From a virus, in the IMG/VR virus record IMGVR_UViG_3300010883_000571, positions 1-21,920 of that record: a stretch of DNA of 21,920 nt; one strand, given 5' to 3'. The stretch's first letter is position 1; the number at the start of each line of letters is the position of its first letter. The notes beneath the pieces are model-generated. The model did not search any database. It had not been told where the DNA came from and worked only from the letters and a program-made list of their open reading frames with translations. The position numbers and the translations under genes are program-made. Shown here piece by piece: positions 19,239-21,920 of the stretch.

Positions 19239-20033
19239 TTATTCTCCTAGTAATGTCTCTGGTGTTAAAAGCGGCTGATCTACGGTTCCGTCTAAGTATT
19301 CATGATATTCCGACAGACGTTCTTTCTCTTTTTCCATAGCTAGTCGCATCTTTTCCATGTCTACGCCTATTTTGGTGCGGAATGATTTATCTGTAGCTAT
19401 CTGTTTCACCAATGAAGCGAAAGTTTGCTTACTATCTTCAATCGCCTTGATACGTTGCTCTCTGGTGCCCTTTAGATCCTTCAGCATCGTCGCCTTACGA
19501 GCTTGGAGATCTTTGTAGTCTTTGGATAGGGTTTCCTGTGAGGCTCTTAAAATGGCCACCTGACGCTCCAGTTGTATAACATAGTCCATGTCTCTCTGAT
19601 CCTTGTCCACTGCCTTTTCTTCTAGCACCAGTTGTTCAAAGGTGGAAACCTGTAACTGCCCCTTCCTTTGACTCCTCAAGATACGATTCATTAATATTTC
19701 GAGTTTGATGGTGTCAATTATTTGCATTTCTTCCGTATGGAACACATCGTCTTTAAATTGACTCCACATCTTCTTAAAGTGAAACTCAAACATTTCCAAC
19801 TCTTCAGAAGAAAACTGATGAATTAGCTCCTTATAGTATGGTTTGGACTTAAGTTCATTAGCTACCGCCGCTTCTTTTTTTTGCTTCGCAGAGAAACCAA
19901 TTTTTTCACCTATCCACTCACGGATACTCTTGGGATCCCTATCCAGTTGCGATGCTATATCGTCTGGAGATAGAACCTCGGCTTTGGCCTCGATAAAAGA
20001 CATCTCTTCAGTTGAAAATCTACCCTTCTTCAT
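19239..20033 (-). CDS. HTH/coiled-coil protein, candidate small terminase subunit
   Basis: 264 residues from the second of two adjacent ATGs (20033), which has GGAG at 6 nt; the first ATG (20036) is only 3 nt from it. The N-terminus (FSTEEMSFIEAKAEVLSPDDIASQLDRDPKSIREWI) reads as a helix-turn-helix of the type that counts DNA sites in TerS proteins. The rest is almost wholly helical with a long coiled coil (DYVIQLERQVAILRASQETLSKDYKDLQARKATMLKDLKG). This is suitable for ring or oligomer formation. It overlaps the sigma gene by 14 nt. TerS normally sits next to TerL; here six genes separate them, which weakens the assignment. A DNA-binding regulator is the main alternative. Confidence 0.6.
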   Translation of the reverse strand: MKKGRFSTEEMSFIEAKAEVLSPDDIASQLDRDPKSIREWIGEKIGFSAKQKKEAAVANELKSKPYYKELIHQFSSEELEMFEFHFKKMWSQFKDDVFHTEEMQIIDTIKLEILMNRILRSQRKGQLQVSTFEQLVLEEKAVDKDQRDMDYVIQLERQVAILRASQETLSKDYKDLQARKATMLKDLKGTREQRIKAIEDSKQTFASLVKQIATDKSFRTKIGVDMEKMRLAMEKEKERLSEYHEYLDGTVDQPLLTPETLLGE

Positions 20034-20541
20034 CATATTCTCCGTTTATTATTCTCTCTATGGCATCAATAACAATAGCCTTGCGGCCTTTTGGCAAAGA
20101 AGCGTTTGATTGGAGCTTCAGATAGTCACGTCGTAAATGAGATGGAAGCTTACGATCAATAAGATAAAGTGTCTCGTTTGCTTGGGCGTGACTTACTGTC
20201 TGGTCTGTTGTACATATATTGTAGAGGGCATCAATATCCATAGGTTCTAGGAGTCTTTTCTTCTGGTCCTGTATCTTTTGGGCGGCAGTGCCATAGTCTA
20301 ACCTGAAATAATTATCACGTTTAAATGTCTTAAGCCTGTTACTGATATGAGTGTACATGAAATTCTCTAGGGGGCGAGTTGTATCGTACTTCTCTAACCC
20401 TGCAATCCCAATCAAGAAAGCCTCTTGCTGTATATCTTCTACACCATATGAGGCAAAGACAAATTTAGGGGCCAGTCTCTTGGCGATTTTCATTATAGTC
20501 TCTACGGCTGCATCCTCATCAACTCCTTCGGGGACTTTCAT
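20020..20541 (-). CDS. Phage sigma factor, region-2 only (T4 gp55-like candidate)
   Basis: 173 residues, near the 185 of T4 gp55. Residues ~16-80 form a sigma-70 region 2: AKRLAPKFVFASYGVEDIQQEAFLIGIAGLEKYD (2.1-2.2, core-binding) and PLENFMYTHISNRLKTFKRDNYFRLD (2.3-2.4, -10 recognition and melting). There is no region 4, hence no -35 reader, as in late sigma factors that rely on the sliding clamp. The acidic C-terminus (INGEYDEEG) might be a clamp-binding tail, but no clear motif can be claimed. The ATG overlaps the preceding stop (TAATG), and AAAGGA lies 11 nt upstream. It likely directs host RNA polymerase to the leftward late genes; being second in that operon it would amplify its own expression. 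Family is fairly clear; late-gene control is inferred. Confidence 0.8.
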   Translation of the reverse strand: MKVPEGVDEDAAVETIMKIAKRLAPKFVFASYGVEDIQQEAFLIGIAGLEKYDTTRPLENFMYTHISNRLKTFKRDNYFRLDYGTAAQKIQDQKKRLLEPMDIDALYNICTTDQTVSHAQANETLYLIDRKLPSHLRRDYLKLQSNASLPKGRKAIVIDAIERIINGEYDEEG

Positions 20542-21029: not shown

Positions 21030-21058
21030 TTGACAAAAGACGATATATATAATATAAT
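21030..21058 (+). promoter_or_regulatory. Early promoter P1, perfect sigma-70 consensus
   Basis: TTGACA at 21030-21035, 17-bp spacer, TATAAT at 21053-21058. The spacer contains GACGATA (21039-21045). Just after the -10 the sequence AACTT-AAG-AAGTT (about 21062-21074) is an inverted repeat at the expected start of transcription, perhaps an operator or a leader hairpin. No clear gene lies between this promoter and P2. Confidence 0.9.
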
Positions 21059-21130
21059 AAGAACTTAAGAAGTTAAATAACGAATAGCGACAAATAATGA
21101 AAAAAACCTTAAATAATAACCCGATTACCC

Positions 21131-21159
21131 TTGACAGCACAACCAATTTAATGTATAAT
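21131..21159 (+). promoter_or_regulatory. Early promoter P2, perfect sigma-70 consensus
   Basis: TTGACA at 21131-21136, exactly 17 bp, TATAAT at 21154-21159. It lacks the GACGATA spacer box of the other three. It drives the 70-aa gene that starts at 21220. Confidence 0.9.
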
Positions 21160-21219
21160 ACTAGTATGACAAACAACAACACAAACAATAATACCACGTT
21201 CTTGAAAGGAACACAGACT

Positions 21220-21432
21220 ATGACTACTAAAGCACACGACGTTCGGGTTATCAAGCACATCGGCACTAGCTACGATGTTTACGCCAACTTCCCTACAGTG
21301 CAAGATGCACTAGATTACATGCGACGTATGGCATTCGCTAATGATTGTTGGTATATCATTGACGCAAACGACAATCGTTTACGATTGAATGCTCAAAATA
21401 AACTTGAAGTATTCCATAGTTTAATCGGTTAA
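21220..21432 (+). CDS. Small early protein, 70 aa, unknown
   Basis: Start set at ATG 21220, with AAAGGAA about 8 nt upstream in the leader phrase TTCTTGAAAGGAACACA that recurs before the gene at 21806. The frame is open back to 21097, but that extension would run through promoter P2, is Asn/Thr low-complexity and has no ribosome site. The 70-residue protein (MTTKAHDVRVIKHIGTSYDVYANFPTVQDALDYMRRMAFANDCWYIIDANDNRLRL...) looks like a small alpha/beta domain: strand, then a helix in VQDALDYMRRMAFAND, then strands. No family recognised. Strong promoter, size and place suggest an early host-takeover protein, an inference from context. Confidence 0.75.
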   Translation: MTTKAHDVRVIKHIGTSYDVYANFPTVQDALDYMRRMAFANDCWYIIDANDNRLRLNAQNKLEVFHSLIG

Positions 21433-21447
21433 TGTTAAGGTTAGCCC

Positions 21448-21476
21448 TTGCACACGACGATAATACAGTATACAAT
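21448..21476 (+). promoter_or_regulatory. Early promoter P3
   Basis: TTGCAC at 21448-21453, 17-bp spacer, TACAAT at 21471-21476. The spacer has GACGATA at 21456-21462, 8 nt before the -10. The leader AATAAAGACATAAGAAAC resembles those after P1 and P4. It is less perfect than the others, so possibly a weaker promoter. Confidence 0.82.
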
Positions 21477-21518
21477 AAAGACATAAGAAACAACAACACT
21501 AACTAAGGAACACGAAAC

Positions 21519-21695
21519 ATGGCTTTTTTCATCTTCGCTCAAGACTTCGCCCGCAACACAGCTTACTCGGCTGGATATCAATTAGGTCGCCAATGTGGAT
21601 TGGGTTATGCTGACATGACGCCTTGCCCATACGACAACGAAACACTTGCCCAAGAATGGCAATGGGGTGTAAACTCTGGACGTTGCGATTCATAA
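21519..21695 (+). CDS. Small early protein, 58 aa, unknown
   Basis: A short frame from ATG 21519 to TAA 21693-21695, with AAGGAA 8 nt upstream and promoter P3 about 45 nt upstream. The protein (MAFFIFAQDFARNTAYSAGY, then QLGRQCGLGYADMTPCPYDN, ending WGVNSGRCDS) contains three Cys, three Trp/Tyr-rich turns and small residues in SAGYQLGR. It may be a compact one-helix domain possibly stabilised by metal or disulfides. No homologue comes to mind. It is an additional member of the promoter-small gene ladder. Codon use and the defined SD make chance unlikely. Confidence 0.7.
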   Translation: MAFFIFAQDFARNTAYSAGYQLGRQCGLGYADMTPCPYDNETLAQEWQWGVNSGRCDS

Positions 21696-21723
21696 ATACT
21701 TTGAGAATAATTAACGTTTGCTA

Positions 21724-21752
21724 TTGACGATAGACGATACTAAGTATATAAT
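21724..21752 (+). promoter_or_regulatory. Early promoter P4
   Basis: TTGACG at 21724-21729, 17-bp spacer, TATAAT at 21747-21752. GACGATA occurs twice (21726-21732 overlapping the -35, and 21733-21739). The leader AATAAGAACATAAGAAGTTAA is nearly the same as after P1. Confidence 0.9.
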
Positions 21753-21805
21753 AAGAACATAAGAAGTTAAGACATTACAACCCGTTTCTTGAAAGGAAAC
21801 ACACT

Positions 21806-21920
21806 ATGCATAAAGCACTAAGCTTTAAGATTTACGCCGATACTAAACTAGTCAAGACAACGCGAAACGCTCGTGTTGCTGACGCCCATCGGACGGCGTT
21901 ACGCCGTGATGGTTTCACCG
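21806..21920 (+). CDS. Small early protein, partial (C-terminus off the right edge)
   Basis: ATG 21806 follows the shared leader TTCTTGAAAGGAAACACACT, with AAAGGAA at about 8 nt. The frame stays open to the window end (38 complete codons). The visible part reads MHKALSFKIYADTKLVKTTR, then NARVADAHRTALRRDGFT. The opening strand (LSFKIYADTKLVKT) plus helix (NARVADAHRTALRRDG) pattern resembles the architecture of the 70-aa protein at 21220 (strand, then helix starting near residue 28), so they may be distant paralogues. No function is assigned. Confidence 0.7.
   Translation, partial: MHKALSFKIYADTKLVKTTRNARVADAHRTALRRDGFT

Follow-up and report, generated by a model that had tools for sequence, protein, structure and literature searches.

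A ladder of repeated early promoters with an internal box in a widespread lineage of uncultured phages

Introduction

The right-hand end of the viral DNA analysed here raises the question of why promoters that are nearly alike, down to a short box within the spacer, should stand one after another before tiny genes that are not alike. The window, which is the whole of an IMG/VR record and a fragment of 21,920 bases, had been described in a sequence-only reading as carrying a cassette system for the swapping of host-takeover genes. That description was followed up in the window itself, in relatives of the phage and in cellular genomes, and the role of the box was considered against several explanations.

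Results

Four sigma-70 promoters were located on the plus strand, at the positions first given for them and all with a 17-bp spacer. Matches to the consensus were 12 of 12 for P1 (21030-21058) and P2 (21131-21159), both TTGACA-17-TATAAT, and 11 of 12 for P4 (21724-21752; TTGACG-17-TATAAT), whereas P3 (21448-21476; TTGCAC-17-TACAAT) was the weakest. In a promoter scan, 17 promoter-like sites were noted, compared with 9.4 +/- 3.0 in shuffles. The box GACGATA, which the sequence-only reading placed 7-8 nt before the -10 of three promoters, was present 7 nt upstream of the -10 of P1 (21039-21045), 8 nt upstream of that of P3 (21456-21462) and, as the tandem pair GACGATAGACGATA (21726-21739), in P4, where the second copy (21733-21739) is in the standard register of 7 nt and the first (21726) overlaps the -35. 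The further claim that the three boxed promoters share a leader held for P1 and P4 and in part only for P3. Thus, the P1 leader (21059-21096, beginning AAGAACTTAAGAAGTTAA) and the P4 leader (21753-21805, AAGAACATAAGAAGTTAAGACATTACAACCCGTTTCTTGAAAGGAAACACACT) have in common AATAAGAAC(A/T)TAAGAAGTTAA and belong to a 71-nt direct repeat (77%). Rfam gave no RNA family, so the leader is not a known RNA element. Also as described, the ribosome-binding element TTCTTGAAAGGAA was found before two genes, at 21199-21211 (gene 2) and at 21786-21798, the surrounding 27-nt direct repeat (78%) extending over 21772-21798 in the second case.

The genes themselves are small. Gene 2 can be read as a long frame of 111 aa (21097-21432), which contains P2 within its first 21 codons, or as a short frame of 70 aa (21220-21432) without a confident family. 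Gene 4 (21806-21920) is cut by the contig end and encodes 55 aa in relatives (L111:5287-5454, L112:3512-3679, L114:5392-5559). Gene 3 (21519-21695; 58 aa), the ortholog of which in L115 is likewise preceded by an equivalent of P3, gave a weak match to ribosome modulation factor (RMF) in Pfam (E=0.0017, under the curated cut-off) and in NCBIfam (E=0.0075). The RMF-like pattern GY..G...G....CPY.....W..G was a weak but repeated match that was also noted in relatives (L110, L111, L112:5001-5177); no solved structure matched this protein, and an AlphaFold model of it (mean pLDDT 50) was too poor for use. Apart from this match, no confident family was found among the small proteins tested.

The left 20.8 kb of the window is a minus-strand block that includes genes for terminase, portal, a ClpP-type head protease, the major head protein and a sigma-70 region 2 protein as well as tail-type genes, and the plus-strand ladder begins at 21,030 and runs off the window end. 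The window is a fragment of a large tailed phage, probably lytic, with terminase relatives of up to 238 kb, and its final 0.9 kb is the beginning of an early-gene arc. A terminase search yielded 455 candidate stretches that were reduced to 80 loci, and the lineage consists of large, uncultured, mostly marine phages and is widespread. The nearest terminases among named phages, those of Microcystis phage MaeS and Bacillus phage Stills, were 25-27% identical, and no close named relative of the lineage was found by this comparison. No usable match to a named phage came from megablast of the window or from distant blastn of its end, and head-protein and portal searches gave no useful relative.

The host could not be assigned from metagenome-assembled genomes (MAGs), in which contigs of the lineage occur under labels as diverse as SAR202, Micavibrio, Planctomycetaceae, Flavobacteriales and Gammaproteobacteria. 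In GTDB, lineage phage contigs were binned in a SAR202 MAG and a Flavobacteriales MAG (G017 contig 9 and G021 contig 69, respectively), and bin labels are therefore unsafe for host calls. One relative, G001, encodes two DUF1501 proteins and an M19 dipeptidase (L095:5749-8222 (-), L096:4422-5636 (-)). Proteins with DUF1501 are common in Planctomycetes, and those of G001 are a possible host lead. Conserved throughout the lineage beside the early region are the sigma-70 region 2 protein (20020-20541 (-)), which may drive late genes, and its 265-aa neighbour (19239-20036 (-)).

The behaviour of the box was evident from 967 distinct promoters that were picked by their -35 and -10 alone. A forward box was present in the spacer of 436 and a reverse box in none. 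The box GACGATA was confirmed as conserved, but its general form is G[A/C/T]CGATA and its distance from the -10 is not fixed across the lineage. Thus, in loci that partly overlap (only identical ones having been removed) and many of which were chosen by motif, the gap between box and -10 was 7 in about 300 promoters, 3 in 44, 5 in 37, 6 in 20 and 4 in 14, gaps of 8 and 9 also occurring; terminase-selected loci gave the same peak. Total spacer length remained constant at 16-17, the distance from the -35 to the box compensating for the varying gap. The sequence CGATA occurred at gap 7 in 316 cases, as opposed to a mean of 0.6 for its other anagrams, and gap 3 was the main register in phage G002.

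In 33 promoters the box directly followed the -10, a shift of 20 bp, or about two helical turns, from its position at gap 7. Promoters of a second type were recognized by TAAAG in the spacer, often TGG before the -10, and GNCGATATAAG directly after it; they were noted in L103, L100, L101, L154, L156, L178, L181 and L230. Among eight aligned phages the box was kept at the P1 locus in all eight, within the spacer in seven and after the -10 in L118, where the promoter is of the second type and yet the box remains. About half of the strong promoters of the lineage carry no box, and equally consensus unboxed promoters stand beside boxed ones. An extended -10 (TGn) was present in 20% of boxed and 35% of unboxed promoters (p=0.002 for sequences that are not independent), which hints weakly that the box may stand in for a polymerase contact. 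A third promoter class has a spacer like TACTAGCCTATAGTA (L114:5564, L115:5505, L118:5886, L120:89, L088:153(-)), an inverted repeat that could itself serve as a separate operator. No description of the box was found in the literature searched, which comprised papers outside subscription.

The sequence-only reading had staked itself on further copies of the box beyond the window and on its conservation in relatives; both were found, and on this point it stands. A scan for GACGATA-N6..9-TATAATAAGAAC gave 12 loci, in all of which the gap was exactly 7, and in phages of 18-148 kb whole-record scans revealed many copies of G[A/C]CGATA with a strong bias towards one strand. The full motif TTGACA-N2..3-GMCGATA-N7-TATAAT was present in at least 119 stretches of IMG/VR, as opposed to 33 for the same motif with the box reversed. 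The motif marks one broad phage lineage, since 17 of 20 large contigs that were found by the motif alone carried the lineage terminase (51-72% identity) while a backward-read control motif gave 0-1 matches per genome. When five large relatives were scanned end to end, boxed promoters, of which there were 9-18 per relative, were strand-pure (15/15, 9/9, 18/18, 13/13 and 18/18) and lay nearly all in one arc. The reading frames behind boxed promoters had a median length of 70 aa, and 81% were of 110 aa or less; the few large ones included a 647-aa gene with a GHKL-type ATPase match. From their strong sigma-70 promoters and position we infer that the genes of the ladder are early genes.

The box was also considered as a general host promoter feature. 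In GTDB, multi-copy matches to the motif were all on contigs with many lineage phage proteins, and other matches were single, scattered and mostly without lineage proteins. Because the multi-copy matches are phage contigs, the box was rejected, by this indirect argument, as a general host promoter feature.

Repeated promoter-leader units before different tiny genes, and genes that vary among relatives while leaders stay constant, had both been anticipated, and both were observed. In the window, L112 and L114 the P4 leader stands before gene 4; a near-identical leader precedes an 89-aa gene in L118, and a slightly diverged one a 63-aa gene in L112. In L112, L114, L116, L118 and L119, gene 2 is followed by the next promoter without gene 3 and its promoter in between, and in L112 the gene 3 homolog occupies another place in the ladder, about 1.5 kb farther along. 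Upstream flanks (the tail of gene 2 or that of gene 3) combine freely with downstream units, with joints in the promoter; a mosaic joint between window P4 and L112 falls between the -35 and the box, and other joints fall upstream of the -35 and at the ribosome-binding element. Of modules at least 90% identical over 42 nt, 41 pairs precede non-homologous and 59 homologous reading frames, an exact 20-mer of -10 plus leader is common to 73 pairs of reading-frame families, and, of 76 families, half were found with promoters of more than one class; these counts are descriptive, related sequences not being independent. Since near-identical promoter-leaders precede unrelated genes and since the flanks are mosaic with joints in the promoter, gene swapping behind constant promoter-leaders is supported by these comparisons. 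The swapping of cassettes, as originally proposed, was thus upheld; the host-takeover role ascribed to the genes was not, the small proteins being without confident family except for the weak RMF match.

P2 had been counted as the head of a fourth cassette. It is a real promoter, strong and unboxed, but is embedded in the reading frame at 21097-21432, which is kept open in relatives, and is not a cassette head. P2 is conserved in L107, L112, L114, L115, L117, L118 and L119, and the 111-aa frame is open in about ten relatives with a distance from ATG to -35 that is always 34 nt; frames of this type recur with other genes in L111 and L120. An ATG stands exactly 6 nt after the -10 of P2, in frame with gene 2, from which a leaderless reading of 88 aa (21166-21432) is predicted. 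In the larger promoter set the predicted transcription start is the seventh base after the -10, where A (76%) is followed by T (59%). An ATG was positioned exactly at the predicted +1 in 117 of 889 promoters (about 10%), in contrast with about ten at most other offsets. This ATG was in frame with, and open to, a downstream gene start preceded by a ribosome-binding site in 40 of 47 promoters, and for 27 of 34 gene families the same held in the majority of members (p=5e-8), whereas an ATA at the predicted +1 was in frame and open in only 40 of 174. Extensions of the N-terminus from the +1 ATG, for example MTNNNTKENKM, were seen to recur before unrelated genes. The excess of ATG at +1 and the outcome of the in-frame test make leaderless translation from a +1 AUG a supported prediction.

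Discussion

The ladder is well supported and widespread, and from sequence we infer a role for the box. A conserved short site overlaps the core promoters of a set of genes, as the operator of a phage regulator would, and the explanation that we consider reasonably probable is an early regulon in which the box is the site of a putative, probably phage-encoded regulator and in which the cassettes recombine. In each unit a strong sigma-70 promoter of the host type is followed by a short leader, rich in A and beginning with ATAAG or ATGAC, then by a ribosome-binding element and finally by a tiny gene. Being repeated, the promoter-leader-ribosome-binding stretches would supply the homology for recombination between units, a step suggested by sequence mosaicism, so that genes could be gained, lost and moved while the control sequence stays. 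One regulator would bind the box and control the boxed early genes as a set, most likely by repression that shuts the set off after takeover, since promoters that already agree this well with the sigma-70 consensus require no activator. Two observations sit less well with such a regulator: a fixed box orientation is not expected of a simple blocking operator, and the dominance of gap 7 also fits an RNA polymerase contact. Among DNA-binding genes that a first comparison of five genomes showed to be conserved (those for the sigma-like protein, its 265-aa neighbour and a DUF559 protein), none was linked to the box.

The main rival explanation, which we regard as possible though doubtful, is that the box is an extra RNA polymerase recognition element that strengthens early promoters for the host polymerase, with no separate regulator. 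Its commonest register is fixed at 7 nt before the -10, its orientation is always the same, TGn is rarer in boxed promoters, and early promoters of T4 also have extra consensus positions (PMC2988021). On the other hand, the occurrence of the box at gaps of 3-9 and even after the -10 would not be allowed by a rigid contact, equally consensus promoters without a box adjoin boxed ones, and no cellular lineage in GTDB shows the box. A bound regulator is favoured over a fixed polymerase contact because the box slides, survives a change of promoter type and is multi-copy only in phages.

A more elaborate form of the regulator proposal, in which the regulon of one new box-binding phage regulator is combined with two modes of translation start, appears highly unlikely. 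On this view, if the RMF-like product of gene 3 hinders ribosome-bound starts, leaderless messages could still be translated as host translation stopped. A remoter prospect is that box and leaders are relics of the recent duplication of one ancestral promoter, their similarity reflecting descent and not function. Certain modules hardly differ within a genome or from one genome to another, and a ladder could plausibly arise by duplication, but the box has stayed constant while surrounding bases, register and upstream flank vary in phages with 51-83% terminase identity, and it outlasts a change of promoter type. Least probable of all is that the box serves a phage recombinase as the signal for joining cassettes since, although the joint between P4 and L112 lies within the promoter near the box, other joints lie elsewhere and the box always stands between or beside a correct -35 and -10, which a recombination site would not need.

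Among known systems, the closest to the ladder is the early-promoter (PeSL) shuffling of T4-type phages, in which repeated early promoters were proposed as the place of gene shuffling (Arbiol 2010 and Comeau 2014, as described in PMC4503421 and PMC4177764). In both cases, strong host-type early promoters are repeated before small, variable genes. The PeSL as described there includes a terminator stem-loop, however, and the ladder promoters lack it: a terminator-like site was present within 95 nt upstream of 1 of 303 boxed and 3 of 280 unboxed promoters (0 and 1 in shuffles). The ladder phages are moreover not of T4 type by terminase (25-27%), and their promoters carry an internal box. Although the layout works alike, the lack of terminators and the distance of the phages from T4 led to the rejection of membership of the PeSL class.

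The early promoters of T4 resemble those of the ladder in their near-consensus sigma-70 sequence, additional conserved positions and early genes, and differ from them (PMC2988021) in that the additional element of the ladder is a separate box of 7 nt, whose register varies and which about half of the promoters lack. The MotA box of T4 middle promoters is likewise a phage site that is short, asymmetric and set at a defined spacing from a sigma-70 -10, but it takes the place of the -35, at 12 +/- 1 nt upstream of the -10 (PMC2988021). In the ladder the box is 3-9 nt upstream of the -10 and a good -35 is retained. Since nearly all box-bearing sites of the arrays have a -35 in addition, a MotA-like role was rejected. 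Start-associated sequences of cluster K mycobacteriophages are also short, asymmetric, one-orientation repeats before many small non-structural genes and are nearly absent from the host, but are placed at the ribosome-binding site and not, like the box, in the core promoter (PMC3203893).

The finding of dozens of tiny early genes under near-identical boxed promoters suggests a shared early-gene switch. The compact motif of -35, box and -10 marks the early genes of a widespread uncultured phage lineage without a close named relative, and these genes can therefore be listed without homology. Early genes are a rich source of host-inhibiting and anti-defence proteins. No standard promoter element behaves like a one-way box that slides within strong promoters, and such a box makes the shut-off of early genes, if that is what the box serves, testable. 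The leaderless in-frame AUG, for its part, provides a clear and checkable prediction of how messages of these phages would be translated.
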